A stretch of DNA of 64,000 nucleotides from Gemmatimonas aurantiaca T-27. Lineage in GTDB: Bacteria > Gemmatimonadota > Gemmatimonadetes > Gemmatimonadales > Gemmatimonadaceae. Below are positions 23,298 through 40,652 of this stretch, in pieces; the first letter of the stretch is position 1, and each line of letters opens with the position of its first letter. Location: assembly GCF_000010305.1 (NCBI RefSeq), contig NC_012489.1:3417646-3481645 (forward strand). The letters are read 5' to 3'. The notes under the pieces are model-generated. The model made no database searches. It worked only from the letters and a program-made list of their open reading frames with translations, and was not told the origin of the DNA. The translations under genes were made by a program, and so were the position numbers.

Positions 23298-23499
23298 GAC
23301 AGCTCCCGGCGTTCGCGTGAGGGTGCGGGCGCTATACGCGCACACTCACTATTCATCAGGGAATTGTCATTGGCATGGTGCAGCGTGCACTAGGGAAACT
23401 CAGCACCCTTCAGAGTATCTATTCCGCCGGATAGGCTACCCGGCCGGTCATCAGCTGGTAACTGTCGCTGCGAACGTCTCTCTTCGTCGAAGAGGAACC

Positions 23500-25980: not shown

Positions 25981-26061
25981 GGGGTCGTCGAGCAGCTTCG
26001 CCGGAAGTCTTCCCGAAGTCGCTAGTGAACGGCGACCGCTCGCTTTGCCGTAACATACACC

Positions 26062-26093
26062 AAGAGAGGCACACCGAATGGTGCGCCTCTCTT
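26062..26093. terminator. Stem-loop between convergent genes
   Basis: A 14-bp stem with one A-C mismatch and a GAAT loop: arm 26062-26075 pairs with 26080-26093. It lies between the 3' ends of the M60-like gene (plus) and the SRPBCC gene (minus) and can serve both. Confidence 0.75.
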
Positions 26094-26111
26094 GCGTTCG
26101 CGGGATCTTCC

Positions 26112-27077
26112 TCAGGAGTGCGCTGCGACGCTCGGCAACAGTTCCTCGAGCTTGTCGAACGACCCCGTCCAGCCCTGCGTCATGCCGGAGCGTTCCGCGA
26201 CAAAGGCCGCGATCTCTTCCGCTGTGACAACGCCAAGCACTTCACTGCGCACCTGCACCCGCGTCTGCCCTGCGCCTTCTTCCGTGAACGTCACTGTGGT
26301 CACCATCTTCTCCGGCCACGTGGGCGCGCCCGGCTGACGCGTGATGTTCTCGTGTTCATCGGCGAAGTACTGCGAGTACACAATGCGATCGGGACGCTGC
26401 ACGTCGAGATACTCGAAACGGCCGTACATGGTGAAGTCGCCGCTCGACATCGACCAGAACGCATCACCACCCGTGCGGATGTCCACGCGACGGAAGGCCA
26501 TCGTCATGCCAGTGGGCGGCAGCCACTGCGCGAGATGCGCGGGTGTGGTCCACATGTCGAACACCGAGGCGATGGGCGCATCGAAGCTGCGGTTGATGAC
26601 AAACAGTTCGCGGCCCTGATCGTCTTTCTCCAGATACTCGGCCAGGCGATCCCAGGTGGAGTTGCCACCGGCAGCCTTGATGAAGCCGCGTGTCTTCTGC
26701 GCCTCTTCGGCCGTGGCGAGTGTCATGCACATGTCGAACTGCGTCTTGCCACCCAGGTCGCGGAATTGTGCGACCACATGAAACAGCGGCTTCGCGTCGG
26801 CCGATGATGCGCCGTGATCGTACACAAGACGCTCACGCGGCACGACTTCGTGGTAGCGCGCGTAGTTCGGCCAGTCTTTGCCATCGGGGCCGTGCATGAT
26901 GTAGTCCCAGTGCCCGCCGGCGCGCAGGTCCTTGGACTTGGTGGTGATGGTGAAGCCTCGCGGTCCCCACCACTGGGCCACCTGGGCCAGGTCGGTCCAG
27001 GCATCCCACACCGCCGCGACGGGCGCGTCGTACACGCGGGTGAGGCGAATCTCGTTGCTGGCTGCCGCTGCGGTCAT
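26112..27077 (-). CDS. Tandem SRPBCC (AHSA1-like) domain protein
   Basis: The 321-residue cytoplasmic protein contains two copies of the AHSA1/START-like fold. The first (~8-150) begins 'IRLTRVYDAPVAAVWDAWTD' and includes 'QWWGPRGFT'; the second (~165-315) begins 'FVINRSFDAPIASVFDMWTT' and includes 'QWLPPTGMT'. The fold binds small hydrophobic ligands; ligand unknown. The start at 27077 overlaps the ArsR stop (ATGA). ArsR-SRPBCC pairs are widespread, normally with single-domain SRPBCC proteins, so the fused double form is notable. Confidence 0.9.
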   Translation of the reverse strand: MTAAAASNEIRLTRVYDAPVAAVWDAWTDLAQVAQWWGPRGFTITTKSKDLRAGGHWDYIMHGPDGKDWPNYARYHEVVPRERLVYDHGASSADAKPLFHVVAQFRDLGGKTQFDMCMTLATAEEAQKTRGFIKAAGGNSTWDRLAEYLEKDDQGRELFVINRSFDAPIASVFDMWTTPAHLAQWLPPTGMTMAFRRVDIRTGGDAFWSMSSGDFTMYGRFEYLDVQRPDRIVYSQYFADEHENITRQPGAPTWPEKMVTTVTFTEEGAGQTRVQVRSEVLGVVTAEEIAAFVAERSGMTQGWTGSFDKLEELLPSVAAHS

Positions 27078-27436
27078 GGTTCGTGGTTCTCGGACGGGGT
27101 GGTGGGAGCGTTCTGGGTGACGGTCTTGAGGTACTCGCCAAGTCGATCGAGGCTGTCTTCCATGTGGGCCCGGTAGGCCTCCATCCACTCGTTGATGTCC
27201 TTGAGCGGTTCCGGATTGAGCCGGCACGGTCGCCACTGCGCATCGCGGCCCTTAGTCACGAGACCGGCCTTTTCGAGCACCTTGAGGTGTTTGGTGACGC
27301 CGGGGAGCGTCATCTGCGACAGGAACGGCTCAGCGAGTTCGGTGACACTGGCTTCCCCTTCCCGGAGCCGGGCAAGGATCGCCCGCCTCGTAGGGTCTGC
27401 CAGTGCGGAGAAGGTTTGACTGAGCGGATCTTGCAT
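27074..27436 (-). CDS. ArsR-family winged-helix repressor
   Basis: The 120-residue protein has the ArsR helix-turn-helix: 'FSALADPTRRAILARL' (residues 9-24) and 'LPGVTKHLKVLEKAGLV' as recognition helix. The Cys-containing metal motif of metal-sensing ArsR proteins is absent, so it probably does not sense metal. It is translationally coupled to the tandem SRPBCC gene. A 12-bp perfect palindrome just upstream is the probable autoregulatory site. Confidence 0.9.
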   Translation of the reverse strand: MQDPLSQTFSALADPTRRAILARLREGEASVTELAEPFLSQMTLPGVTKHLKVLEKAGLVTKGRDAQWRPCRLNPEPLKDINEWMEAYRAHMEDSLDRLGEYLKTVTQNAPTTPSENHEP

Positions 27437-27448
27437 GTCGTACCGTTT

Positions 27449-27460
27449 AGTTAATTAACT
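27449..27460 (-). promoter_or_regulatory. Palindromic operator AGTTAATTAACT upstream of arsR-SRPBCC
   Basis: This perfect 12-bp palindrome is strikingly AT-rich in a GC-rich background. On the minus strand it follows a plausible promoter, TTGCGC, 16 bases, TATTAT (in the range 27470-27497), and would lie at about +1 to +12, where a bound ArsR dimer would block transcription. On the plus strand the same region contains TATAAT (27467-27472), which might serve the GNAT gene at 27602. Confidence 0.65.
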
Positions 27461-27601
27461 GTTTGGTATAATAAAGGGCACAATTCGTTGCGCAAGTGGG
27501 TGCGACACCGTGAGGAGAGTCGACGCCGACGCGCCCACCCGGTGAGCAACAGATGGCTCGAAGGATCCGGAATCCCTTGTTCTCCAGACATAGCTTACTG
27601 C

Positions 27602-28063
27602 ATGGAAATTGTCCCGTTCTCTCCTGCCTACGCGCCCGCCTTCACCGCGCTCAACCGTGCGTGGATCGAGCGGCTGTTCACTATCGAGCCAGCCGACCTC
27701 AAGGTTCTGAATGATCCGCAAACGGCCATCATCGACCAAGGCGGACAGATCTTCTTCGCGGTCGAGCGCGGTGTGGCCGCTGGTACCGCAGCGGCCGTCC
27801 ATGTCGGCAATGGTCGCTACGAACTGGCCAAGATGGCCGTCGACCCAGCGCACCAGGGTGCCGGGCTTGGCTTCCTGCTCGGACAGGCGGTGGTCGAGTG
27901 GGTGCGCGCACAAGAACAGGCGCAGTCGCTGTTTCTCGTGACCAACAGCTCGCTGCAGGGCGCCATTCGGCTGTACGAACGGCTCGGTTTTCATCATGCC
28001 CCGATGCCGCCGGGATCTGAATACGCGCGAGCCGATGTGTACATGGAGCTCACCGAGCTCTGA
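27602..28063 (+). CDS. GNAT-family N-acetyltransferase
   Basis: The 153-residue protein has the acetyl-CoA-binding motif A, 'AVDPAHQGAGLGFLLGQA' (Q-x-x-G-x-G), after 'YELAKM', and the 'GAIRLYERLGFH' motif B typical of small GNAT enzymes. The acceptor is unknown. I chose ATG 27602 because 'MEIVPFSPAYAPAFTALN' matches the usual GNAT start; an in-frame start at 27488 adds a basic unlikely extension. It converges on the CocE-like gene with no gap. Confidence 0.85.
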   Translation: MEIVPFSPAYAPAFTALNRAWIERLFTIEPADLKVLNDPQTAIIDQGGQIFFAVERGVAAGTAAAVHVGNGRYELAKMAVDPAHQGAGLGFLLGQAVVEWVRAQEQAQSLFLVTNSSLQGAIRLYERLGFHHAPMPPGSEYARADVYMELTEL

Positions 28064-30352
28064 TCATGGCCGCCGGACGGGCACATCCACAAAACTGCCC
28101 GGCATCAACCGCAGGCTCATTGGAGTCACGGCGTCCGACGCACGCTCGGCGCTCACATCGCCGCCGGTGCCATGATTCACCTGATGCCCGGCGTCCTTGT
28201 TCACATCGATCACGAGCAACAGCCGACTCCCCGCCTGCATACGTCGGCTGGTCATGCGCGACCGTGTGAACGGCAGCGTGGTTTGCTGGCCCGGTACCAG
28301 CAGTTTCCGCTGGGCAAGATCCCGCACATGACTGGCCCGTCCGAGATAATACGACAGATGAAACACCCGTCCGTCGGGTAGCAATTCGTATAGCACCACA
28401 TTGAAATCGAAGTCGCGGGTATTGGTGATCACCTCGAGTGATCCCGAAATGGCACCACTCACCTCGGTGGGTGCTGAAAACGGTGCACTGACAAACGTGA
28501 GTGCATCACCGAACTCCGGCACCGGGCCGAGTACGTTCACGGGATAGTAGCCGACATGCTGCGTGGTGCGATCGGCCATGTTGGCGATGCGCACGATGCC
28601 CGGATGATCCTTCCGCGCCGTGTCGAGTGTGAAATGTGCACCATCACGCGCTGCGGTTGGATACAGGCGGAGTGGTCGTTCAGCGAGCGCCGCCAGCGAC
28701 GGTGCATGACGCCACACATTGGCGCCCATGACCTGGTGATTGACCTTGTCCGCCAGCAGCGCTGGCCTGGGGGCACCACGCAAGACGTGATCGAGCCAGG
28801 CAAAGGTCAGCGTCGTGGTGTTGAACTGCGCCACAGAATCGAGCACATGGCCCCTGACTTCCGCGGACTTGCGTGCCGCGCCTGCACCGCCGTGATCGTA
28901 TGGGCCAATCACCAGATAGTGCGCCGCATCGGGCCGGTACCGCATGTGCTCACGCACATAGTGCAACGCGGAGATCTGGCCATCGTCGAAATAGCCGGTG
29001 ATGGACAGCACAGGGATGTCGATCCTGGCAAAGTCTGCCCCATAGGGCACCATACGCTGCCAGTAGCTGTCGAATGTGGGATGCGTCAGCCAACGTTGCA
29101 GAAGGGGGTTGGGGGTTCCATCCACCTGATCGATGTCACGGAATGGCCTTCCACTCTCGTACCAACGTTCGGCCAGTTGATTCCACCGATTGCGATCGAA
29201 GTACGTGTCGTTGTCGAGCTCGCGATTGTTGCTCACATAAAACGGCCAGGCATAGTTCGCCGTGAGAAACACATTGTTCTCCATCGGCACGCCCTGACCA
29301 GGAATGGCGGCCGCCGAGACGACAATGGTGCGCAACGCCGGATGTTTCCGTTTGGTGGCCGCCCACGCCGTGAACCCCTCGTAGCTGGCGCCGTACATGC
29401 CGATTCGCCCATCGCTCCACGGCTGTGCGGCAATCCAGTCGAGCACCGCATGGGTGTCATTCGCCTCTGCTTCGTACGGACGAATGGTGTCGCGACTGAG
29501 TCGCTTCCCGCGCGCGTCGGCCACCACACCCACATATCCGTGCGATGCCGCGCGCCGCGCCGTTTCGAGATGCTGCCTGCTATTGGTGTAAATGGTGAAG
29601 TTGAACGCCGTGGGTTGCCGCGTCGTGGTACGGCGTGGTCGCACCACTACAGCCGACAAGGTGATCCCTTCGCGTGTGCGCACCAGCACGGCGGTATCGG
29701 TCAGGTAGCGACGCGTGTTCTCCGCCGCGAGTACCTCGGGCAAGGACGATTCCAGCGCCTGCAGCGCGCGTTGCATCACGTGGCTACGCACCAGCGTGAT
29801 GGCGTCGGCGTTGGACAGGGAATCGCGTGTGGTGGCGCGGGAGACGGCGCTGGCAAGATTGCGCTCGAACACGAAGAATGGTGTTTCGAGGTACCAGCCC
29901 ACCTCGAACGCGTCCCGATCACTCAATGCCGTCAGCCGCTGCCGGAGCGCGCGCTCGAAGGTCGGTGCGGCCATGCCGGCTTCGGCGCGCGCGGTCAGCA
30001 GCACCAGCGCAGGATTGTCCGCCGCGCGTGGTGCGTCCGATCGCGCAGCGATGGTACGCAGCGAGGCCAAAGCACCCGTGGAATCATTGGCGGCCAACTG
30101 CAGATAGGCACGATCGGTTAGCTGGCGTAGTGAGCGCGCCGCGTCGGAGAGGCCATCAGGCTGGGCAAGCAAGGCGATCGCCAGACGACGGACTTCGGTA
30201 TCAAGCAGGGCCGGCTCACGTTCCGCCGCTGGCGCCAGGCGCAGAGGTTGTGCATCAACGCTCCGTGTAGCCGCGATACACAACATCATGCCAGCCACAC
30301 AGTGGATGACGGCTGGCGGGATGCGCCGAGCGGCTGGAACGAAGGGATTCAT
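28064..30352 (-). CDS. Exported CocE/NonD-type serine hydrolase (X-Pro dipeptidyl-peptidase S15-like)
   Basis: The 762-residue protein has a signal peptide ending Ser-Val-Asp-Ala-Gln. An N-terminal helical ~200 residues precedes the alpha/beta-hydrolase S15 domain: 'GYVGVVADARGKRLS', the nucleophile elbow 'GASYEG' after 'IGMYG', and 'VLSITGYFDDGQ' with the acid. The C-terminal ~250 residues form the jelly-roll domain of X-Pro dipeptidyl-peptidases and cocaine esterase. It would cleave N-terminal dipeptides, esters or acylated amino-acid compounds in the periplasm. The start at 30352 is set by the signal peptide. Confidence 0.9.
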   Translation of the reverse strand: MNPFVPAARRIPPAVIHCVAGMMLCIAATRSVDAQPLRLAPAAEREPALLDTEVRRLAIALLAQPDGLSDAARSLRQLTDRAYLQLAANDSTGALASLRTIAARSDAPRAADNPALVLLTARAEAGMAAPTFERALRQRLTALSDRDAFEVGWYLETPFFVFERNLASAVSRATTRDSLSNADAITLVRSHVMQRALQALESSLPEVLAAENTRRYLTDTAVLVRTREGITLSAVVVRPRRTTTRQPTAFNFTIYTNSRQHLETARRAASHGYVGVVADARGKRLSRDTIRPYEAEANDTHAVLDWIAAQPWSDGRIGMYGASYEGFTAWAATKRKHPALRTIVVSAAAIPGQGVPMENNVFLTANYAWPFYVSNNRELDNDTYFDRNRWNQLAERWYESGRPFRDIDQVDGTPNPLLQRWLTHPTFDSYWQRMVPYGADFARIDIPVLSITGYFDDGQISALHYVREHMRYRPDAAHYLVIGPYDHGGAGAARKSAEVRGHVLDSVAQFNTTTLTFAWLDHVLRGAPRPALLADKVNHQVMGANVWRHAPSLAALAERPLRLYPTAARDGAHFTLDTARKDHPGIVRIANMADRTTQHVGYYPVNVLGPVPEFGDALTFVSAPFSAPTEVSGAISGSLEVITNTRDFDFNVVLYELLPDGRVFHLSYYLGRASHVRDLAQRKLLVPGQQTTLPFTRSRMTSRRMQAGSRLLLVIDVNKDAGHQVNHGTGGDVSAERASDAVTPMSLRLMPGSFVDVPVRRP

Positions 30353-30460
30353 ACGTGCATTTCCAAGGATGGGGTGAGCCAACCTACGACACCACGTGCC
30401 TCCGTGTTTCTTCGTGGGCCAGGGGTTCACCTGCCGCGGACCGCGGTCCAGATTATCGAC

Positions 30461-30820
30461 ATGGTCGCCGCACTCCGCCGTCGCGCGGGCGCCGCTGTAC
30501 TCGCCCTGTTCCTGCTCCGGATCCTGTCCCCGGAGCTTGGACACATGTGTGCGAGCATGTCACCGTCAGCGGATACGACCGACGCGGCGCACGAACACGC
30601 GCATGAACACGCGCATGAGCACGAGACGCCGGCCGCGCCCTGTGATTGCGCCGAGTGGTGCTGCTGCATCCCGGCTACGATAGCCAGGCCCACGCACGCG
30701 CCCACGGTGTTGGTGGCTATGGTGCCGGCCAAACCTCTGGCAACACCCGCAGCACCGACGGTCCGCGTTGATCGCCCGGATCGGCTGCTGCCATTTGCCA
30801 ACGCACCGCCCCGCGCGTAA
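30461..30820 (+). CDS. Small His/Cys-rich exported protein (copper module, first copy)
   Basis: The 119-residue protein has an N-terminal hydrophobic segment (residues ~8-24), then a His/Glu repeat region ('EHAHEHAHEHE') followed by a Cys cluster ('CDCAEWCCC') and a Pro/Ala-rich tail. The layout, with His/Glu repeats then clustered Cys, suggests binding of copper or a similar soft metal. It opens a plus-strand set ending with Sco/PCuAC and CtaG-like genes. A second protein of the same design lies at 31376. No named family recognised. Confidence 0.6.
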   Translation: MVAALRRRAGAAVLALFLLRILSPELGHMCASMSPSADTTDAAHEHAHEHAHEHETPAAPCDCAEWCCCIPATIARPTHAPTVLVAMVPAKPLATPAAPTVRVDRPDRLLPFANAPPRA

Positions 30821-31024
30821 CACGAGCGTCTGCTCAGGGCGCACTGCCCTCTCTGCGACAATCTGAACGGCCTGTCCATCGCCTGCACCGCCTCCGGTGT
30901 GCAGACGATGCGCTGCTGCATGGATTGCTGGCTCCCCAACATGTAGCCCCACCCACCCTTCCCGACCGCCCACCGACACGATGGTGCGCGGGACACTTTG
31001 GTTCGCCCGTCTCCAGACAGGTCC

Positions 31025-31369
31025 ATGAATCAACCCATCGTCACATCGGTTGAAGGCGCGACCACACCACCGGTCGCGCGTGCGATCATCACATCGGCAA
31101 TGAGTCCGTTCTGCCCGGGGCTCACATTGGAAACCTGTCCGAGCCCTTCGGCGGACAGCTTGCGGCAGGTCATCATCGCGCGGGTGCAGCGAGGTGACGG
31201 TCGGGCGAGCATCGAAGCCGACCTCGAACGGGACTTTGGCAGCGCCATTCGCTCCACACCCAAGGCCGAGGGCTTTGGTCTGATCGGATGGGCGGCGCCT
31301 GGTCTGTTCCTGCTCATTGGCGCGGTGTGGATGACCCGCTGGCTGCGCCGTCAGACGATCGCGCGGTAG
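31025..31369 (+). CDS. CcmH-like cytochrome c biogenesis protein (variant Cys motif)
   Basis: The 114-residue protein resembles the CcmH/CycL N-terminal domain: 'MSPFCPGLTLETCPSP' (Cys30 and Cys38), then 'DSLRQVIIARVQRGDGRASIEADLERDFG', matching in order the family's conserved Arg helix and 'eI...l...yG' segment (quoted in part). The canonical CxxC is replaced by C-x7-C. There is one C-terminal transmembrane helix (~86-105) and no N-terminal signal peptide, so topology differs from the usual CcmH. It would reduce apocytochrome or handle thiols during heme attachment; this is family inference. It lies seven bases before the second His-rich gene. Confidence 0.6.
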   Translation: MNQPIVTSVEGATTPPVARAIITSAMSPFCPGLTLETCPSPSADSLRQVIIARVQRGDGRASIEADLERDFGSAIRSTPKAEGFGLIGWAAPGLFLLIGAVWMTRWLRRQTIAR

Positions 31370-31375
31370 ACCGCC

Positions 31376-31819
31376 ATGTCCGTCCAGCGTCGACTCGGTG
31401 CGTATTGTGTCCTCATACTCCAGTTGTTCCTGGGTATGCGGCCATTCGCGCTTCCGGGTACGATCGCCGGATCAGCGGGCGGTGACCGACACGAGCATGC
31501 GCACGCGCCTGTGCATACGCATGTGCATACGCATGTGCGTACGCATCATGTGCACGAGATGGTGCCCGATGCGCCGGTGCCAGAGACGCACCAGGAGCAT
31601 GATGAACACGGGGAGCACCGCGAGCATGCGACGGGCTGCCATGCCACGCCCTGCTGCGCCCCCATCGCTCCGCAGGCCGTCGTGCGGAGTATCGGAAACG
31701 CCATTGTCATTGCCCCGCGTGTCATTGTCAGTCGCAGCGCGTATGCGGCGCCGGCATCCGTAGCGCCCTGGCGCCAGCCGCCGTCCACCGCTCCCCCTCA
31801 CGGCGAATTGCGCTCCTGA
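31376..31819 (+). CDS. Small His-rich exported protein (copper module, second copy)
   Basis: The 147-residue protein has a hydrophobic N-terminus (residues ~9-28) and a central region with alternating 'HVHTHVHTHV'-type His repeats and 'EHDEHGEHREH', followed by a Cys group ('CHATPCCAP'). The design parallels the 119-residue protein at 30461, with divergent flanks. Metal binding, probably copper, is inferred from composition and from the neighbouring Sco/PCuAC and CtaG-like genes. The DNA coding for the repeats is itself a short tandem repeat (about 31510-31550). Confidence 0.6.
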   Translation: MSVQRRLGAYCVLILQLFLGMRPFALPGTIAGSAGGDRHEHAHAPVHTHVHTHVRTHHVHEMVPDAPVPETHQEHDEHGEHREHATGCHATPCCAPIAPQAVVRSIGNAIVIAPRVIVSRSAYAAPASVAPWRQPPSTAPPHGELRS

Positions 31820-31872
31820 TCGCGCACCGCTGATCGCGCACCGCCTATCGCGCACCGCCTATCGCGCACCGC
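31817..31872. repeat. Four tandem copies of a 14-bp unit overlapping a stop codon
   Basis: Units TGATCGCGCACCGC (twice) and CTATCGCGCACCGC (twice) run head to tail, and the first begins with the TGA stop of the 31376 gene. It lies in the ~200-bp gap before the cytochrome c gene. It may be simple slippage or a binding site; no function is evident. Confidence 0.8.
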
Positions 31873-32017
31873 TGACCATGCGCGGCGCCCGGGCACGACC
31901 GGCTCCCGTTCCTGACATCGTCATTCCCTGCCCCGGCCACTGCGTTGCAGTGCGGCCGCCGCGTGCTCCTACGCGTGCGCGGCGATGGGCTCGGCCCACA
32001 CCTGACATCCCTCTCTC

Positions 32018-32515
32018 ATGTCCTCCCTCATGAACGTCTTCGCCATCGTGGCGCTGATTCTGTTGGTCGCATGTGCCGGCGAGAAAGCTGCCAACACACC
32101 AGCAGATACGACCACGGCCAGTGCCACCACCACCGCCGGCCCCGATGGCGAAGCACTGTATGGCCGCTGCATCGCCTGTCATCAGAGCACCGGCGCCGGC
32201 CTGGTCGGCGCGTTCCCGCCATTGGCCGGTTCGGAATGGGTCACCGGCCCTGTCTCGCGTCCCATCGCCATCGTACTGCACGGCGTGCAGGGTGCGCTCA
32301 CGGTGGCCGGCACCACGTACCACGGTGCCATGATGCCCTATGGCACCAACATTCCGATGAACGACGCCGAGGTGGCGGCCGTGCTCACGTACGTGCGAAC
32401 GCACTTCGGCAATACGGCGTCGCCGGTGACGGCCGAACAGGTGACACAGGTGCGAGCCGCCACGAGCTCGCGCACCACACCACTGACACAACGGGATCTG
32501 GAGGCACTGCGGTGA
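32018..32515 (+). CDS. Class I cytochrome c lipoprotein
   Basis: The 165-residue protein has a lipobox with Cys19 ('LLVAC'), a Thr/Ala-rich linker, and a single heme c site 'CIACH' (51-55). The likely axial Met lies in 'GAMMPYG'. The fold fits small periplasmic electron carriers attached to the membrane by lipid, and it probably feeds a terminal oxidase. An alternative start is ATG 32030. Its stop overlaps the GTG start of the SCO-PCuAC gene by four bases. Confidence 0.9.
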   Translation: MSSLMNVFAIVALILLVACAGEKAANTPADTTTASATTTAGPDGEALYGRCIACHQSTGAGLVGAFPPLAGSEWVTGPVSRPIAIVLHGVQGALTVAGTTYHGAMMPYGTNIPMNDAEVAAVLTYVRTHFGNTASPVTAEQVTQVRAATSSRTTPLTQRDLEALR

Positions 32516-33573
32516 GTGCCACACGTGCCGTGATCCTGAGCGTTCTGTGGCTGACGCTGATGGCGTGTGGTGATTCCGCCGGCGACACCACACCACCAGC
32601 CAATGTCTTTGCTGGTGCTCCAATAGCCGAACCACTGAGCAAACCCGCGTTTGCGCTGGCCGCCACCGATGGCGCGGTGTTCGACTTTCGACGAGACACC
32701 GACGGCAAGCTGACGTTGCTACTGTTCGGCTACACACACTGCCCCGACATATGCCCCGTGCATATGGCCAACCTGGCCGCCGTCATGCAGTCGATGAGTG
32801 CGACCGAGCGGAAGCAGGTACGAGTGGTCTTTGTGTCGGTCGATCCCGGGCGCGACTCGAGCGCCATCATCCGGCACTGGCTCGATCAGTTTGCCACCGA
32901 CTTCATCGGACTGCGAGGCACCGAAGATGAAGTGGGGCGCATCCAGATGTCCCTTGGTCTGCCGCCTTCCACCGTCACCGTGGACCCGGTGAGTCGACAG
33001 ACCGATGTGGGACACGCCACGCAGGTCATCGCCTTCACACCGGACAACCTCGCGCATGTGATGTATCCGTTTGGCACACGACAAACCACCTGGGCGCGTG
33101 ACATGCCCCGGTTGCTCACGTATCGCGCCGGTACACCAACGCCCGTCGTCATGGATACGATCGTCGCGGGCGATTTGCGAATCACGGGAGGTGCGATCAC
33201 GTCGGCCATCGAAGGGCGTGAGCACGCGGCTTACCTCACGATTGACCATCGCGGCCATACCGACGACGTGTTGCTGGCGGTTGGGGTTGTCGACGTGGCG
33301 AGTGGCACGCTGCACCAGACCGTCACCGATGCCAGACAGCGTCAGCACATGACGTCGATCGACAGCCTGGTGATACCGGCCGGCACGCCCACCACGCTGA
33401 GCAACGGTGTGTTGCACGGCATGTTGCCGTCCCATGAACGCCTGCGACAGATCGGACAGACGGTGCCGTTGCAACTCACGTTCCGCCGCACCGGTGTGGT
33501 GACCATCCCTGCCCGCGTCACGCCGGCAGGCATGATCCCCGACGAACACGCGGCACATTCACACCAGCACTGA
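32512..33573 (+). CDS. SCO-family copper chaperone fused to a PCuAC domain
   Basis: The 353-residue protein starts at GTG 32512, overlapping the cytochrome stop (GTGA). A lipobox Cys19 ('LTLMAC') is followed by a Sco1/SenC thioredoxin-like domain with the copper motif 'CPDIC' (Cys77, Cys81) after 'FGYTH' and a His in 'VGHATQVIAF'. From about residue 220 there is a PCuAC (DUF461) domain: 'LHQTVTDARQRQHM' and 'GVLHGML' supply the His/Met copper ligands, and a His-rich tail 'EHAAHSHQH' ends the protein. Both domains deliver Cu(I) to the CuA site of cytochrome c oxidase in known systems, and separate proteins are the rule, so the fusion is informative. The CtaG-like gene follows 10 bp later. Confidence 0.85.
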   Translation: MSATRAVILSVLWLTLMACGDSAGDTTPPANVFAGAPIAEPLSKPAFALAATDGAVFDFRRDTDGKLTLLLFGYTHCPDICPVHMANLAAVMQSMSATERKQVRVVFVSVDPGRDSSAIIRHWLDQFATDFIGLRGTEDEVGRIQMSLGLPPSTVTVDPVSRQTDVGHATQVIAFTPDNLAHVMYPFGTRQTTWARDMPRLLTYRAGTPTPVVMDTIVAGDLRITGGAITSAIEGREHAAYLTIDHRGHTDDVLLAVGVVDVASGTLHQTVTDARQRQHMTSIDSLVIPAGTPTTLSNGVLHGMLPSHERLRQIGQTVPLQLTFRRTGVVTIPARVTPAGMIPDEHAAHSHQH

Positions 33574-33583
33574 GCGCATCCTC

Positions 33584-34444
33584 ATGACCGAGTGGCAGTG
33601 GTGGTGCGCCGCGCGCGCCGACGTGTGGACCTGGACATGGCAGCCCTATCCGGGCGTGTGGATCATCGTGGGACTCGCCCTGCTGGGACTCACGATGCTC
33701 AATCGACCGGGGGAACCATCAACGAACGCCGTGATGTTGCCACCTCCGTCGGTGTGGTCACGGGTCAGCATGACGTTGGGGCTCCTGCTGCTCTGGGCGG
33801 CGCTCGACTGGCCGGTTGGTGCACTCGGCGCCGGTTACCTGGCTTCGGTGCACGCCGTGCAGTTCGTGGTGCTCGCCATGATGGTGCCGGCGTTGCTGCT
33901 GGGTGGCATCGGTCCAGCGGGGCGCTATCGACTGACGCAGTATCGATTGGCACAGCACCGATTGCTCGCAATCGGTGCCCGCGTATGGCAACGGATGACA
34001 TCACCCGCGGTCGCGATGGCGCTGTTCGCCGGCGTGATGATCGTCAGTCACCTGCCGCCCGTAGCCGATGCACTCGTGGCATCGGCCACCGGATCGTTTG
34101 TGCTCGACATGTCATGGCTGGTGAGCGGACTGGCGTTCGCCTGGCCGCTCATCATGCCACGGTCGGAGGTGCCGTCGGAGACGTACCTGTCTCCACTGAT
34201 GCGCATCGGCTATCTGTTTGCCGGCACCATTGCCCATGTGTTCATCGGCATGTGGCTGCTGGTGGCTGACTATCCGCTGTACGCCACGTACGAGTTGGCG
34301 CCGCCCCTTGGCGTGCTTTCGCCTCGTATGGACCAACAGGTCGCCGGAGGCGTGATGCTTCTCCTGGGCACGCCGCTGGTGGTGATTGCCATCGGGCTGC
34401 AATTCCGGGAGCTCGGATCAGAGGCGAATCCGGAGACGTTGTGA
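33584..34444 (+). CDS. ctaG: Cytochrome c oxidase assembly protein, CtaG/CaaG family
   Basis: The 286-residue integral membrane protein has about seven predicted transmembrane helices, several with Trp/His at their ends. 'LASVHAVQFVVLAMMVPALLLGG', 'VSHLPPVADAL' and 'AGTIAHVFIGMWLL' (in part) match the caa3-type CtaG family, with the conserved His residues. In Bacillus-type organisms this family is needed for the copper centre of caa3 oxidase. Here it ends the copper-delivery operon. No oxidase subunit genes are in the window. Confidence 0.85.
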   Translation: MTEWQWWCAARADVWTWTWQPYPGVWIIVGLALLGLTMLNRPGEPSTNAVMLPPPSVWSRVSMTLGLLLLWAALDWPVGALGAGYLASVHAVQFVVLAMMVPALLLGGIGPAGRYRLTQYRLAQHRLLAIGARVWQRMTSPAVAMALFAGVMIVSHLPPVADALVASATGSFVLDMSWLVSGLAFAWPLIMPRSEVPSETYLSPLMRIGYLFAGTIAHVFIGMWLLVADYPLYATYELAPPLGVLSPRMDQQVAGGVMLLLGTPLVVIAIGLQFRELGSEANPETL

Positions 34445-34566
34445 CCATGCGTAACCTTGCGCACGACTATGGGATGCTCATGTCGCGCCATGACATTGAG
34501 TCTTCGCAAGACCGTACCCCATATTGCGAACGTATTGGACCGTCTCATTGAACGAGGACACTGCTC

Positions 34567-35031
34567 ATGCGAGCAACACACATTTTCGCGTACCTTCTGG
34601 TGTTCGGCGCGTGCACGTCGTCACCAGACGAACCGGGCACCTACCGTGATACCGTCGAAGGGTTGGTGGTGCATGGATCTTTTGAATGGCCCGTTATGGC
34701 CGACTCAGCCATCACACTGAGGATGATCCTCAAGAATCCAACATCGGAAGGGCGACGCTTTGAAGTTCCGGCAGGCGAGCCCTTCAGTATTCAACTCCTG
34801 CCGACCAATGATGCGGCAATGATTGAACTGCCACCGGATTCCTATGACCGCATGGCACGCATCGTCCAAATTCCCGCACGCGATAGCGTGATCATCAGCC
34901 GAACGGTACTCGAAAAGAACCTTCGCTCGTTGCCAAACGGTGTGTACAGAATTCTGGGTCGGGTGCCGAACTCTTCCTATGTTGGCGTGCCATTGGGGGT
35001 CGTTTCTCTGCCCTGGGGTCGCTCGCGATAG
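34567..35031 (+). CDS. BsuPI-like domain lipoprotein
   Basis: The 154-residue protein has a lipobox at Cys16 ('LVFGAC'). The rest resembles a BsuPI/intracellular-proteinase-inhibitor-like beta-sandwich: 'DSAITLRMILKNPTSEGRRFEVPAG' early and 'GVYRILGRV' near the end are typical edges of that fold. It may inhibit proteases or bind envelope proteins; this is inference from fold only. Upstream of it are about 120 bp with no other feature. The composition is slightly less GC-rich than in the neighbours. Confidence 0.6.
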   Translation: MRATHIFAYLLVFGACTSSPDEPGTYRDTVEGLVVHGSFEWPVMADSAITLRMILKNPTSEGRRFEVPAGEPFSIQLLPTNDAAMIELPPDSYDRMARIVQIPARDSVIISRTVLEKNLRSLPNGVYRILGRVPNSSYVGVPLGVVSLPWGRSR

Positions 35032-35548
35032 TGGCGCTCCAGGCTGCGACATCTTCACATGTTCTTCGTGAAGCGCAGCTTTCCGCCGTTCTTGGCTCGT
35101 ATTCCAAATCGCACTACGACACAATGCGACAATTGTCACCATGCATCACATATCACAGAGTCGGATCTTTCCGTGATGCAGTCATTGCGTAGCTGATTGG
35201 GCCGGGTCGTGCACCTGAGGTACAAGGTGCGCATATGTGATGTATTGCACACCGAAACAGATGAGCGGAAATCGCATTGCGTGGTTCAGTCGCGCAGGCG
35301 AGGTCATCCAAACTGAAGAGTTTCGTCTAGGCCATAAGGACGATGCGCTATGCATGGCATTTGTTCACCATGCAAATGGTCATGCAGGCACACATGCGCA
35401 TGATCAGCATCACGCGGATATCCGCGTTGCACGCAGCGCGACACCAGCCAGCGATCGGCGCCAGGCATTGCCCACACATGCCGATGATCATCGCCCCAAC
35501 GCGCCGTCCTCGCATGTCACTGGTGTTCCCACCAACACCCAGGATCAT
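35032..35548. other. 517-bp gap with no supported gene
   Basis: The gap between the BsuPI-like lipoprotein and the barrel protein holds only short frames. One frame runs on from 35237 into the barrel gene and encodes a His-rich stretch ('HHANGHAGTHAHDQHHAD'), but a clear signal peptide begins at 35549, so I treat the upstream part as noncoding. The first ~200 bp are less GC-rich than usual and probably include the promoter of the next gene. Confidence 0.4.
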
Positions 35549-37735
35549 ATGCCCACCTCTCGTTCGATTCGACTTTCCCGCAACCTTCTCGGCCTCGCGC
35601 TGCTGTCTGCCGCGGCGATTTCGAGCAGCACACCCGTTGGTGCCCAGCAGATTGGCGTGTCCGTACTTCCAAGCGCGCAGCGCATTCAGTGGAGCGACGA
35701 CTTTCCGCTGGATGACGAGTACCTCTATGGCGGTCGTGTCGCATTGCGTTTTGGCAAGTGGGTCGAGCTGCAGCCGTTCTACTTTCAACGGGCTGGAATC
35801 GGAATGGATTCCACCCGGGCACATTCCGCGTTTGGCCCACTGTCCGCCGGCCGGAAGGTCGATCTCAAGCACTACGGCACCAACGTCCAGCTCAATTTCG
35901 GCAGCTCCACCTTCGTGCCATTTGCCCGTGCGGGCGCCGGTGTTTTGCGGCTGGAGCCAGATTCCGGTGATCGACAGGATCGTATCGCGTTGAGCGCGGG
36001 GGGTGGCGTACGATTTGGCATTGGCGGTCTCAACGCCGAACTGTACGCGGAGCAGATGGGCTTTCGCATGAATCCGCGCTCGCTGTTTGGTGCCGACACC
36101 ACCACCGGCGCCAGTCTCACCACCATGCGCAACCTGGTGTACGGCGCGGCAGTCACGATTCCGCTCAGCACCATGCGGGAAGATGTGTCGTCGGAAGGCC
36201 TCAGTGGCTCCACCGCACCACTCGAGCCGTTTGTCGGCCGACTGAAGTACGCCGGTGAACACAACCTGCCCAATCTGGAAGTGGCGGGTGTGCGGGCCGG
36301 TATCGACTTCTCATCGGTGTTTGGCGTGCGCGGCTTCTACTGGCGTGGCGTGAACGATGACCGTGATGGTCCGGCGCCGGTTGCCGGCTACGGCGGTGAA
36401 GCCCAGTTCAATCTCTCCACTGGTGCTGGTCTCACGCCGTACCTGATCGTTGGCGCGGGCCAGATCGACTACAAAGACAACTTCGTCGATTCGCTGGGTT
36501 TCTCACGCTCCGACAAGACCGCGTTCATTCTCGGCGGTGGTGCGAGCTTCCGGTTGACGGACCGTGTGCGCATCAACGGCAGCATTCGGGACTATGTCAT
36601 GACCGTCGATGACAATTTCGACAACGTGGCCGGCACGGGCGATCTGACGCACAACACCATGATCACCGCCGGTCTGACGATCAGCCTTGGTGGCCGTTCC
36701 ACACCGTCGGCGCGTGAACGCGAAGCCGAGCTCCGTGCTGAGCGTGCGCGTACGGAACGCATGCGCGAAAGCCGCGACTTCGAACTGCGCGAACGTGAAC
36801 TCCGTGATCGCGAGTTGATGCGCAGCATGGAAGACCGCGACCCGCGCTCGGGTCGCATGATGGCGGACAGCACCCGCGTGTACCGCGACTCCACGGTGAT
36901 CAATCGCACGCGCATGGTGCGCAGCCAGACACCGAATGGTCAGTGGATCACCATCCCCGTGCCGGAACAGGGTGAGATCATTTTGCGGTACGGCGTCCCG
37001 CCTCGTGCCAGCACCGACAGTGCGCCAAAGCCGCGTGTGGACACGGTGATGGTGCCGCGTGATACAGCGGCGACCCGTCGCATCGACACCACGGTGGTCA
37101 TTCGTGATACGTCGGTCGTTCGGACGGGCACACCACTGCCCACCGACCTGGCGGCCGAGTTGCGCGAAATCGAACGACGCCTGTCGGCACGTATCGATGC
37201 AGTGCAGCAGCGCCCCAACACTGCACCGAACATCACGACGATCAATCCGGTGGCGCCACTTGCACCGGGCGCACGAGACACCGTGGTCGTGGACCGGAAT
37301 TCGCGGCCGGTATTCCAGCGGCTGTCGCAGACCCGCACCAGCGACCTCAGTCCGTATGTCGGCTTGGGCATGGATGATGGCGACGTGCAGTTCGTCGTGG
37401 GATTGCGTGCCGACCTCGGGCCGGTGAACGCCAACAGCGGTTGGCATTTTGTGCCGGAGCTGGCGGTGGGTATGGGCGAGGGCAGCACCTCCGTGCTCGC
37501 GCTGGCCAACGCCCGCTATGCGTTTGGTGCTCTGGGCGGTTCGAGCGCGATGCGCCCCTACCTGACACTGGGTGCCGGTGTTTTCTCCCCCACCGTGCTG
37601 GGCGTCAACACGGCGGTGGGTTCCTCATTTGCTCTGCGTTCGGGCGACAAGCCCCTGTTTCTGAACGTGGAACTGCAAGGCATCAATCTGTTCAATCAGA
37701 CGCGTATCCTCGTCGGCCTGAGCCGCGGTCGATAG
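35549..37735 (+). CDS. Large envelope protein: outer-membrane barrel regions around a charged helical linker
   Basis: The 728-residue protein has a signal peptide (residues ~10-31, ending Val-Gly-Ala-Gln). Residues ~32-380 are strand-rich, Gly-rich and typical of OmpA-like/porin-like barrels. A highly charged Arg/Glu segment (~385-425, 'ELRAERARTERMRESRD' in part) may form a coiled coil, followed by a Pro/Thr-rich region and a second strand-rich block (~585-728). No peptidoglycan-binding OmpA motif is visible. AGGA six bases upstream supports ATG 35549. It might connect the outer membrane with the periplasm. A terminator hairpin follows. Confidence 0.65.
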   Translation: MPTSRSIRLSRNLLGLALLSAAAISSSTPVGAQQIGVSVLPSAQRIQWSDDFPLDDEYLYGGRVALRFGKWVELQPFYFQRAGIGMDSTRAHSAFGPLSAGRKVDLKHYGTNVQLNFGSSTFVPFARAGAGVLRLEPDSGDRQDRIALSAGGGVRFGIGGLNAELYAEQMGFRMNPRSLFGADTTTGASLTTMRNLVYGAAVTIPLSTMREDVSSEGLSGSTAPLEPFVGRLKYAGEHNLPNLEVAGVRAGIDFSSVFGVRGFYWRGVNDDRDGPAPVAGYGGEAQFNLSTGAGLTPYLIVGAGQIDYKDNFVDSLGFSRSDKTAFILGGGASFRLTDRVRINGSIRDYVMTVDDNFDNVAGTGDLTHNTMITAGLTISLGGRSTPSAREREAELRAERARTERMRESRDFELRERELRDRELMRSMEDRDPRSGRMMADSTRVYRDSTVINRTRMVRSQTPNGQWITIPVPEQGEIILRYGVPPRASTDSAPKPRVDTVMVPRDTAATRRIDTTVVIRDTSVVRTGTPLPTDLAAELREIERRLSARIDAVQQRPNTAPNITTINPVAPLAPGARDTVVVDRNSRPVFQRLSQTRTSDLSPYVGLGMDDGDVQFVVGLRADLGPVNANSGWHFVPELAVGMGEGSTSVLALANARYAFGALGGSSAMRPYLTLGAGVFSPTVLGVNTAVGSSFALRSGDKPLFLNVELQGINLFNQTRILVGLSRGR

Positions 37736-37757
37736 CACGACGTAGCGTGTCATAGTG

Positions 37758-37799
37758 CAGGCCCCGGTCCCGCGACATCACGTGCGAGCCCGGGGCCTG
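37758..37799 (+). terminator. Rho-independent-type terminator
   Basis: CAGGCCCCGG (37758-37767) pairs exactly with CCGGGGCCTG (37790-37799), and the sequence then continues TGTTTT. It lies 22 bp after the stop of the barrel gene. Confidence 0.75.
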
Positions 37800-37901
37800 T
37801 GTTTTCCAACATATGCGCGCAACCGAAGCGATGCGCCGTCCCTGCCAGAGTCGATGATTCGTGATCAAGTTCCTTTCTATGATTGAACGGCGGCGCAGCA
37901 C

Positions 37902-39593
37902 ATGACCCCGGATCCCCGGACCTGGCCACTGCGGGTCGTTGTCCAACGCACGTTGTTGGCCCCCGCACCAGCGGAAGGCGTCGCCACGGGCCTCGTGCTG
38001 GCGGCATTGTCGCTCACCCCCAGTCTGCTCCCACGGACCTGGGTGCTGGAGGGGTTGCTCTGCGGGCTCGCGATGTGCGTAGGCTATGCCGTAGGACTGA
38101 TCGTGCGTGCCGTGTGGCGGTACTTCGAATTTCCAGTCCCCGCGCCACGGGTGCGACGCGGATGGGTGATGGCCACCCTGTCACTTTCGGGCCTGGCGTT
38201 GCTCGTAGGGCTGGTGCGCTCGTCGGCATGGCAGAACGATGTGCGATCCGTCATGGCGCTGCCGCCCCTCGACGAATGGTATCCCTGGCTCGTGGCAACG
38301 ATTGCCATTGTGTTGTTTCTCCTGGTGCTCACCGCCGCACGACTGTTCCGGGTGTTGCAGCGCACCATGGCGCGCCCTTCGCAGGGATGGATGCCGCGTC
38401 GAGTGTCGTCCGCACTCGGGTTTGCGGCGGCCAGTGTGCTCGTATGGACACTGGCCAATGGTGTATTGCTTCAGGGGCTGCTGCGTACCATGGACGGCAC
38501 CTATCGTGAGCTCGATCAGTGGGTCGACGACTCCGAGGCCGCACGGGCATCGGAGTCTGCCGCCATGGCATCACCGTCGTCGCTCACCTGGGCATCGTTG
38601 GGACGGCATGGCCGACGCTTCATCGGCACACGCTCCGACACGGCCTCGATTCGCGCCGTCGCTGGAGCTGTCGATGCGGAGCCGGTACGCATCTACGTGG
38701 GTCTCACGGTGGCCGACTCCATTTCGGCGCGTGTGGAGTTGGCCTTTGCCGAATTGCAGCGACGTGGCGCGTTCGATCGGCAACTGCTGCTCATCACCAC
38801 ACCCACCGGCTCGGGATGGGTGGATCCACCAGCCGTCGCCGCTCTGGAATATCTGTATCGCGGTGATGTGGCCACGGTGGCTGTGCAGTACTCGTACCTG
38901 CCCAGTTGGCTGTCGCTGCTGGCAGAATCCGCGTACGGCTCGGAGACGGCCGCGGCACTCTTTCAGCGGGTGTATTCGCATTGGCGCGCCCTGCCACGCG
39001 ACAGCCGGCCTCGATTGTATGTGCACGGAGTGAGTCTTGGTGCGCTCAATTCCGGTGAAGCGCTGAACATCTACGACCAGATGGACGACCCCATCAACGG
39101 CGCGCTGTGGGTGGGTCCACCATTTCGCAGTACCAACTGGCGTACCCTGGTGGACAATCGGGACGCTGGTTCACCGATGTGGTTGCCGGTGTACCGCGGT
39201 GGCAGCACGGTGCGCTTTGCCAACCAGGCCACGTCACCCACTAAACTGTCGGCGCCGTGGGGGCGATTCCGCATTCTCTACCTGCAGTATGCATCCGACC
39301 CCGTCGCGTTCTTCGATGCCCGTATCGCCTGGCAACAGCCGGAATGGTTGCGTGAGCCGCGTGGCCCCGATGTCACACCACGCCTGCGCTGGTACCCGCT
39401 CGTCACCATGCTACAGTTGGCTATCGACTTCATGTCGGCCGACAAGTCACCGCGCGGCTTCGGGCACATGTACAGTGTGCGCGACTACGTGAAAGCCTGG
39501 GCCGCACTCACCAATGCACCGGGATGGACCCCGGAGTCCCTCGAGGCGTTGACCGAGCATCTCATGACGGCCCCCTGCTGCCGCGACCTCTGA
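37902..39593 (+). CDS. Membrane alpha/beta-hydrolase (Abhydrolase_9/DUF2319-like)
   Basis: The 563-residue protein has at least four transmembrane helices in the first ~210 residues (starts 'SLTPSLLPRTWVLEGLLCGLAMCVGYAVG'-type, in part), then a soluble catalytic domain beginning around residue 240 ('EPVRIYVGL'). The nucleophile elbow is 'HGVSLGALNS', a GxSxG motif, and 'DNRDAGSPMWLPVY' and 'GFGHMYSVRDYV' correspond to later conserved blocks of this family. Such proteins are found in mycobacteria, rhizobia and others; the substrate is not known. An extracytoplasmic active site is likely. Confidence 0.8.
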   Translation: MTPDPRTWPLRVVVQRTLLAPAPAEGVATGLVLAALSLTPSLLPRTWVLEGLLCGLAMCVGYAVGLIVRAVWRYFEFPVPAPRVRRGWVMATLSLSGLALLVGLVRSSAWQNDVRSVMALPPLDEWYPWLVATIAIVLFLLVLTAARLFRVLQRTMARPSQGWMPRRVSSALGFAAASVLVWTLANGVLLQGLLRTMDGTYRELDQWVDDSEAARASESAAMASPSSLTWASLGRHGRRFIGTRSDTASIRAVAGAVDAEPVRIYVGLTVADSISARVELAFAELQRRGAFDRQLLLITTPTGSGWVDPPAVAALEYLYRGDVATVAVQYSYLPSWLSLLAESAYGSETAAALFQRVYSHWRALPRDSRPRLYVHGVSLGALNSGEALNIYDQMDDPINGALWVGPPFRSTNWRTLVDNRDAGSPMWLPVYRGGSTVRFANQATSPTKLSAPWGRFRILYLQYASDPVAFFDARIAWQQPEWLREPRGPDVTPRLRWYPLVTMLQLAIDFMSADKSPRGFGHMYSVRDYVKAWAALTNAPGWTPESLEALTEHLMTAPCCRDL

Positions 39594-39683
39594 CGCGCCT
39601 GATCGCGATGTCCGTTTTGGTCTGATTCCTGTCATTGCTGCCATGCCTCTTCCGCGCAAACTTGACCGCGGAGGAATCACACC

Positions 39684-40652
39684 ATGGCACCAATCACCAT
39701 AGCGACGCTGTTGTATGACGGCGTCAACGCGCTCGATGTCGCGGGACCGCTCGAGGCGTTTGCCGCAGCGTGCACAGGGAACAACACCCCTGGGTACACG
39801 ATCGACACCTGGAGCCTGGGCGCACTCGACGTGCGCACGGAATCCGGTCTGTTGCTGCGCGCACACCGCCGAGCACCGGAACGACCGGCGGCCGACCTGT
39901 TGCTCGTGCCGGGGGGCTCCGGCGTGCGAGACCCACGAACACTCAAAGCCCTCGGCGATTGGCTGCGCCGACACCATGCCGCCTTTGTACGCATCGCCAG
40001 TGTGTGCACCGGAGCCTATGCGGTAGCGGAATCGGGGCTGGCGGATGGACGCACTCTCACCACGCACTGGGCACACGCCAACGATCTGGCACGCCGCTAT
40101 CCAGCGGTGCGTGTGCAGTCGGATGCGCTCTGCACACAGGACGGCCCGCTCTATTCGTCGGGTGGCGTCACGGCTGGCATCGACCTCGCACTGTCCATCA
40201 TCGAAAAGGACCTCGGGGTACGCACCGCGGCGGCGACGGCGCGTGAGCTGGTGGTGTTCCTCCGGCGCACCGGCACCCAGGCCCAGTTTTCGGAGCCCCT
40301 CAGACTGCAGGCCATGAACGATGACGGACTGCAGGAAGTGTGTCTCTGGGCCACCAATCATCCCGACGCCGATCTGTCGGTGGAAGCGCTTGCCACACGA
40401 GCCAACATGAGTCCGAGGCAGTTTGCCCGGCGTTTCCGGTCCGCGATGGGCATCACCCCCGGACGATTCGTGGTGACACTGCGCCTCGACCGCGCGCGCA
40501 CGGCATTGGCCGGTGGTCGCGTGAGCATCAAACGGGTGGCCAGCGGTGCCGGCTTTCAGAGCGTGGATGGATTTCGCCGCGCCTTCGAGCGCGAGCTGGG
40601 TGTGAGTCCCAGTGAATACCAACAACGATTCGCCAATCGGAGACCGCGATGA
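39684..40652 (+). CDS. GlxA-type transcriptional regulator (DJ-1/PfpI + AraC)
   Basis: The 322-residue protein joins a DJ-1/PfpI-like domain (residues ~1-175; 'LLLVPGGSGVRDP' and a nucleophile-like Cys in 'ASVCTGAYAVAESGL') to a C-terminal AraC DNA-binding domain ('LSVEALATRANMSPRQFARRF' and 'IKRVASGAGFQSVDGFRRAFER', in part). It probably senses a small molecule and activates a nearby gene. Its stop overlaps the start of the heavy-metal-domain hydrolase (ATGA), so that gene is the likely partner. Confidence 0.95.
   Translation: MAPITIATLLYDGVNALDVAGPLEAFAAACTGNNTPGYTIDTWSLGALDVRTESGLLLRAHRRAPERPAADLLLVPGGSGVRDPRTLKALGDWLRRHHAAFVRIASVCTGAYAVAESGLADGRTLTTHWAHANDLARRYPAVRVQSDALCTQDGPLYSSGGVTAGIDLALSIIEKDLGVRTAAATARELVVFLRRTGTQAQFSEPLRLQAMNDDGLQEVCLWATNHPDADLSVEALATRANMSPRQFARRFRSAMGITPGRFVVTLRLDRARTALAGGRVSIKRVASGAGFQSVDGFRRAFERELGVSPSEYQQRFANRRPR

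Follow-up and report, generated by a model that had tools for sequence, protein, structure and literature searches.

What does it say about two copper chaperones when they are found on one polypeptide chain, and which enzyme would such a protein serve? These questions are raised by a gene in a 64,000-nucleotide stretch of the Gemmatimonas aurantiaca T-27 genome (the window), whose product carries an Sco domain followed by a PCuAC domain. In Bradyrhizobium diazoefficiens, separate Sco and PCuAC proteins are described as jointly loading CuA, in a scheme where Sco first docks on subunit II in its reduced form, after which PCuAC charged with copper delivers the metal in two encounters (PMC9145763). 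The PccA and SenC proteins of Rhodobacter capsulatus are reported to serve the CuB site of cbb3 oxidase (PMC7558416). For Streptomyces lividans, maturation of CuA is credited to Sco, and the CuA-loading role of the PCuAC-like protein is doubted and left undefined in the account of PMC3603459; for Paracoccus, PMC6696091 presents the role of PCuAC in CuA loading as unproven. The division of CuA work between the two proteins differs among model bacteria, and roles as reductant, copper donor or both are still argued (PMC9145763, PMC7558416, PMC3603459).

The locus contains the following features, given in coordinates of the window.

30998–31369, + strand: CcmH-like cytochrome c maturation protein (Pfam PF03918, 2.2e-12); a putative operon member at most
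31376–31819, + strand: small His/Cys-rich ORF of no recognised family (DUF6153 below threshold, E 0.017); a putative operon member at most
32018–32515, + strand: c-type cytochrome (Pfam Cytochrom_C, 2.3e-9)
32512–33573, + strand: Sco–PCuAC fusion lipoprotein, 353 aa (open frame, two-domain Pfam match)
32512–32568, + strand: signal peptide and lipobox LMAC with Cys19 (inspection of the sequence)
32647–33045, + strand: Sco (SCO1-SenC) domain, residues 46–178 (Pfam, phmmer, Foldseek)
32740–32754, + strand: CPDIC (CXXXC) copper/redox motif, C77 and C81 (sequence)
33013–33015, + strand: distal Sco copper ligand His168 (alignment of fusions)
33121–33171, + strand: inter-domain linker, residues 204–220 (boundaries taken from the alignment)
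33214–33504, + strand: PCuAC domain, residues 235–331 (Pfam, Foldseek)
33313–33423, + strand: predicted Cu(I) site H268-X11-M280-X21-H302-X-M304 (published motif, exact spacing)
33541–33570, + strand: His-rich C-terminal tail, DEHAAHSHQH (sequence)
33584–34444, + strand: Caa3_CtaG-family protein (Pfam PF09678, 1.5e-35)

A preliminary description of the locus had read the central gene as a single lipoprotein with an Sco domain (CPDIC) and a PCuAC domain (His/Met ligands), and this reading holds: both domains score above their Pfam cut-offs, and the lipobox and the ligands are present. Frame translation gives one uninterrupted reading frame that begins with GTG and runs for 353 codons without an internal stop. 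SCO1-SenC (PF02630) matches residues 46–178 with an E-value of 2.1e-26 (92.9 bits against a curated cut-off of 22.8), and PCuAC (PF04314) matches residues 235–331 with 1.1e-15 (57.8 bits against 29.4). The Sco part matches S. lividans Sco (4bpy) at 5.1e-31 by phmmer. Searching the PDB by sequence with an E-value limit of 0.001 returned 13 Sco sequences of 157–200 residues, which cover the Sco part only, and no PCuAC chain; an NCBIfam scan gave just one unrelated match, below threshold. The PCuAC copper motif is published as H(M)X10MX21HXM (PMC9145763), and the second domain reproduces its spacing exactly, with Gln where the motif has its bracketed Met. The exact H-X11-M-X21-H-X-M spacing arose in 6 of 20,000 shuffles of residues 207–353, and 137 of the 20,000 fitted a looser form of it.

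The AlphaFold2 model, computed from a 23-sequence alignment, has two confident domains (mean pLDDT 86.4, pTM 0.60), with low-confidence stretches at residues 20–27, at 209–211 in the linker, where pLDDT falls below 50, and at 347–353 in the tail. A pTM of 0.60 lends no support to a fixed orientation of the two modelled domains. The predicted first domain leads to Sco structures of thioredoxin-like fold (4bpy, Foldseek 2.4e-15). The predicted second domain is cupredoxin-like, with Foldseek matches to 6p1g and 3zja (both 1.5e-8) and to 2k6w (3.4e-7). Here 6p1g is the PCuAC protein PmoF, 3zja is an S. lividans Cu(I) metallochaperone that we take to be ECuC, and 2k6w presumably comes from Thermus thermophilus. 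Going by their descriptions, none of the 50 Foldseek matches listed is an Sco–PCuAC chain; the longest alignments listed are to DipZ and, with an rmsd near 18, mean little.

Upstream, the stop codon of the cytochrome c gene and the GTG start of the fusion share four nucleotides (GTGA), and downstream the Caa3_CtaG-family gene starts 10 nt beyond the fusion's stop codon. Because of this overlap and short gap, the three genes probably form one operon. The downstream product is a relative of the Caa3_CtaG family (PF09678, 123.1 bits against a cut-off of 27.7) and, judged from its sequence, not the named equivalog, since it fails NCBIfam TIGR02737 (62.6 bits against 279.35); Pfam gave no match to a Cox11-type family. 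The cytochrome c has a weak match to ccoP, far below threshold. Further upstream, the product of the small ORF at 31376–31819 is exported-looking and very His-rich with a Cys cluster, GCHATPCC, and might possibly be a periplasmic metal sponge beside the copper chaperones. On the opposite side of the CcmH-like gene, a second small His/Cys-rich ORF at 30461–30820 (+ strand; AHEHAHEHAHEHE ... CDCAEWCC, without a Pfam match) looks like a relative of it. The product of a further gene at 40649–41764 (+ strand), 371 aa long, contains a short HMBD motif for heavy-metal binding (1.2e-5).

The search for the same domain architecture that the preliminary description had proposed was productive. Both domains were sought in one open frame in 395 genomes of the phylum Gemmatimonadota, and at least 19 further genomes with the fusion were found at first; four loci were added later by applying equal open frames, three with the same domain order (L187, L188 and L189) and one with the order reversed (L190), all from Gemmatimonadota. 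Together with actinobacterial loci, there are at least 27 further non-redundant same-order fusions among the matches listed, 22 in other Gemmatimonadota genomes and five in actinobacteria, namely four from Actinomadura (L027, L029, L030 and L037) and L141, which is counted as actinobacterial as its genome belongs to the family of an Actinomadura genome. L003 was dropped because it is the same stretch as L116, and homologue gene starts, chosen by a lipobox rule, are approximate. The reversed fusion (L190:2325–3323, genome G305) is a 333-aa frame in which Pfam places PCuAC at residues 51–152 and SCO1-SenC at 180–308; it retains the PCuAC motif and has CPDLC. A further candidate, G441, had equal open frames that suggested a fusion but was rejected for an in-frame stop between its domains, and 17 other Gemmatimonadota regions with a PCuAC match, picked mostly for a long open frame, contained no fusion.

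Twenty-four fusions were aligned in detail: T-27, 19 from Gemmatimonadota and four from Actinomadura, with L141 and L187–L190 outside the ligand count. The Sco ligands C/C/H are intact in all 24, and the PCuAC motif is intact in 23. No frameshift between the domains was found, but one homologue of the kind that the preliminary description had considered damaging to its reading does exist: L134:5110–6129 has lost the His and HxM ligands of PCuAC with its Sco ligands intact, and its second domain may have a non-copper role. In the 23-sequence alignment A1, which includes the T-27 fusion and excludes L134, both Pfam families match every member, and the column of the lipobox Cys19 is at least 90% conserved. 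Outside the ligand count, L187–L190 all have CXXXC and the PCuAC motif in a looser pattern, and L141 has H, M and HxM with a shorter H-to-M spacing. Linker length in the 24 fusions varies between 3 and 35 aa with a median of 24.5, and the linkers share no common sequence. The His-rich tail noted in the preliminary description is present in T-27, with four His in the last 25 aa (HAAHSHQH), but it is not a conserved feature, as no more than one His occurs in this region in any of the other 23 aligned fusions; it corresponds to the disordered His/Met-rich C-terminal extension often present in PCuAC proteins, and pLDDT is below 50 at residues 347–353.

The fit with the CtaG-like neighbour, also put forward at the outset, extends to many relatives. 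A Caa3_CtaG gene directly follows the fusion (within 700 bp of the Sco domain end) in 17 of the 19 first-found Gemmatimonadota relatives and in one of the four added later (L187). None was seen near L129, L134, L188, L189 or L190, or near any of the five actinobacterial fusions (four from Actinomadura, and L141). The linkage thus marks most, not all, Gemmatimonadota fusions.

How the two genes came together can be read in part from unfused relatives. In 63 of the best 80 of 571 loci, mostly from Streptomyces, an unfused PCuAC gene starts on the same strand within 300 bp of the Sco domain end; the remainder comprise five fused loci, one with PCuAC at 300–1000 bp and 11 with none within 1 kb. 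In Gemmatimonadota, sites of the same kind occur as sco-ctaG, sco-pcuAC-ctaG and fusion-ctaG. As a separate observation, two tandem PCuAC matches follow sco in the Chloroflexota loci L017 and L020. The commonness of adjacent unfused genes in the same order is what would be expected if a frameshift or assembly error had merged two neighbours in T-27. However, homologues refute such an artefact, with in-frame linkers in at least 27 same-order fusions elsewhere plus the one reversed, and the T-27 genome is a single contig with 99.97% completeness; we regard an artefact as having almost no chance of being correct.

In trees from which L187–L190 are absent and which keep roughly one Streptomyces row in six, the fused state changes eight times for Sco and six times for PCuAC, with at least five of the changes forced by well-supported branches in the Sco tree and at least five forced in the PCuAC tree. 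An AU test that set 24 fused rows against 61, and from which the long rows own_sep/L001 and L134 had been dropped, rejects one common origin for the same-order fusions as a whole (p = 7e-77). For Gemmatimonadota alone (19 rows) the test leaves a single origin standing (p-AU 0.063), and some of the changes on the trees may therefore be losses or transfers. The reversed fusion is, from its gene order, a separate joining. Given this and the rejection of one origin for all, the genes were joined at least three times: forward in Gemmatimonadota, forward in Actinomycetota and reversed in Gemmatimonadota. Because L141 and the Actinomadura fusions stand apart among unfused relatives in the Sco tree, a fourth joining is possible.

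These results bear on the proposal in the preliminary description that the fusion is 'Rosetta stone' evidence for two chaperones acting in sequence. Joint action is well served by the fusion and is strengthened by the reversed homologue, but an order of action is not; the fusion argues that Sco and PCuAC work together at a 1:1 ratio, not that one precedes the other. Moreover, the joint working of separate Sco and PCuAC proteins was already published (PMC9145763, PMC7558416).

The client of the T-27 protein is less simply assigned. The genome, a single contig of 4,636,964 bases, also has an unfused Sco and PCuAC tandem that outscores the fusion in both domains (Sco 1.7e-37, PCuAC 3.6e-29; L001, L135), and this tandem is preceded by a Fur-family gene and followed by a small cupredoxin-like ORF. 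The latter, a 116-aa ORF directly after the unfused PCuAC gene (L001:1845–2195), is cupredoxin-like by reading, with H...C...H seen by eye and no Pfam match. The only COX2 match in the genome, gene L150:6807–8168, has the CuA motif and lies beside COX1, COX3 and another Caa3_CtaG gene (L150), and these caa3 genes are about 2.9 Mb from the fusion on the contig. Other copper enzymes are indicated by an ORF that by sequence reading is a cbb3-like fused CcoN–CcoO (L147:1435–3693), by a NosZ ORF with a CuA-type C-x3-C-x3-H-x2-M stretch (L149) and by a partial COX1-like match with an internal TAG stop (L148). The caa3 genes thus lie far away with a Caa3_CtaG of their own, and a second Sco and PCuAC pair, NosZ and a cbb3-like oxidase are present, so that CuA is a putative client in T-27, one of several candidates.

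Within the genus, the fusion was found in only one of 30 Gemmatimonas genomes, several of them incomplete; matches came from 28 of the remaining 29, and those listed are to unfused Sco or PCuAC genes. The PCuAC domain of the T-27 fusion is very divergent: its end branch measures 1.96 changes per column, and no other row shares more than 35% identity with it. With an unfused pair, a second Caa3_CtaG gene at the caa3 genes, a cbb3-like oxidase and NosZ all present, the fusion in T-27 is an accessory cassette that one species has either retained or gained, and all its ligands are intact. Since the unfused pair is there, the fusion probably provides a second, specialised route.

COX2 and NosZ were tested in 20 Gemmatimonadota fusion genomes, namely T-27 and the first 19, and all 20 have COX2 matches, the best of which in each genome has the CuA ligands C-x-E-x-C..H..M; a secondary COX2 match, L177, is without them. 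NosZ, another CuA enzyme, was found in 12 of the 20 and not in the other eight, which weakens its candidacy as a general client. Exactly one PCuAC was found in 17 of the 19 other fusion genomes, and among the matches listed 15 of these 17 were placed inside the fusion frame; the later-added genomes G018, G251, G322 and G305 have one PCuAC each. Taken together, the CuA subunit II in every genome tested, the usually single PCuAC and the Caa3_CtaG gene 3' of the fusion in 17 of 19 relatives suggest that the task shared by the fusions is to assemble a CuA-type oxidase.

The explanation we favor, and consider reasonably likely, is that the fusion is a membrane-anchored two-site copper chaperone, holding its sites at a 1:1 ratio on a flexible linker, that would assemble the binuclear CuA center in subunit II of a caa3-type oxidase. 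The lipid-anchored Sco domain would use its CXXXC/His site to dock on subunit II in the reduced state, where it might act as copper donor, as thiol reductant or as both. On its tether, the PCuAC domain, its H/M/H/M site loaded with Cu(I), would then be present at high local concentration, and subunit II could receive copper with no need for a second encounter between free molecules. Under either the B. diazoefficiens or the T. thermophilus scheme, a flexible 1:1 tether would make that second encounter intramolecular. Against a CuA role, the fusion may be redundant for this purpose in T-27, because the better-scoring unfused pair is present and a Caa3_CtaG gene follows the caa3 genes.

Several other readings deserve weight. 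It is possible, at somewhat longer odds than even, that the Sco domain is a thiol-disulphide reductant only and PCuAC the sole copper donor, with reduction coupled to metallation; this variant is compatible with our favored explanation. It resembles the scheme reported for T. thermophilus, where Sco acts on the cysteines as a reductant and both coppers come from PCuAC (PMC6696091, PMC7558416), and it accords with retention of CXXXC in 24 of 24 fusions. However, the distal His, an Sco copper ligand, is retained just as completely, and the best-matching solved Sco, that of S. lividans, is reported to be a copper chaperone and not a reductase (PMC3603459). A different client is unlikely in our view, although T-27 offers some grounds for one: its three copper-dependent terminal reductases (counting the CcoNO-like ORF) outnumber its two Sco/PCuAC systems, so that the fusion might serve CuB of the cbb3-like oxidase or CuA of NosZ while the unfused pair serves caa3. 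The sub-threshold ccoP match of the upstream cytochrome c leans the same way, and use of Sco and PCuAC for cbb3 CuB is published (PMC7558416). Set against this, NosZ goes unfound in eight of the 20 fusion genomes whereas CuA subunit II is in all 20, the usual neighbour is a Caa3_CtaG-family gene, and a scan of the window's ORFs from 23098 to 41764 turned up no nosZ or cco gene.

The long PCuAC branch and the private His-rich tail would also suit a T-27 protein that has become a copper buffer or resistance factor, its PCuAC domain drifting, with the pair beside the Fur-family gene doing the CuA loading. Retention of that pair, the occurrence of the fusion in one of 30 genus genomes and the two small His/Cys-rich ORFs upstream are in keeping with such a role. 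Nevertheless, the protein retains all four PCuAC ligands and all three of Sco, its neighbours (cytochrome c, CcmH-like and Caa3_CtaG) are respiratory genes, and in other genomes the fusion usually contains the sole PCuAC found; we judge this role quite improbable. At the other extreme, the fusion might be a self-contained CuA loader, in which the Sco copper, the PCuAC copper and perhaps a third site in the T-27 tail would supply both CuA coppers in a single docking, replacing the published series of one separate Sco and two PCuAC encounters, and selection for this would have joined the genes at least three times. We offer this version as speculation and doubt that it is correct.

Each half of the protein has well-known relatives. 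Like S. lividans Sco (4bpy) and the Sco/SenC/PrrC family, the fusion has a predicted thioredoxin-like fold, CXXXC with a distal His, and a lipobox, but it carries a PCuAC domain behind Sco on the same chain. Like members of the PCuAC family (3zja, 2k6w), it has a predicted cupredoxin-like fold and the H-X11-M-X21-H-X-M motif, but its PCuAC half is not a free soluble periplasmic chaperone, since it sits on the Sco chain behind the lipobox. Domain databases may list the Sco–PCuAC architecture, and we do not claim its first sighting. The same two genes are adjacent in the sco operon of S. lividans and S. coelicolor (3966 sco, 3965 pcuAC-like) but encode separate proteins (PMC3603459). In proteobacterial DUF1775(YcnI)–PCuAC fusions, PCuAC is likewise joined to a copper-linked exported domain, but the partner is DUF1775 and not Sco, and the suggested role is copper homeostasis (PMC8424229). 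We found no description of an Sco–PCuAC fusion in the literature searched, a set that misses some probable sources. What is new is the covalent combination, in both orders, of two families whose joint function was already known.

One practical consequence is that, because 17 of 19 fusion genomes show one PCuAC, a search for stand-alone PCuAC genes could call the function missing. A recurrent natural fusion fixes the stoichiometry of the two partners at 1:1 and provides both in one purifiable protein, so that ternary-complex and single-encounter models become directly testable. The Sco–PCuAC fusion is therefore a natural tool for testing how Sco and PCuAC cooperate.
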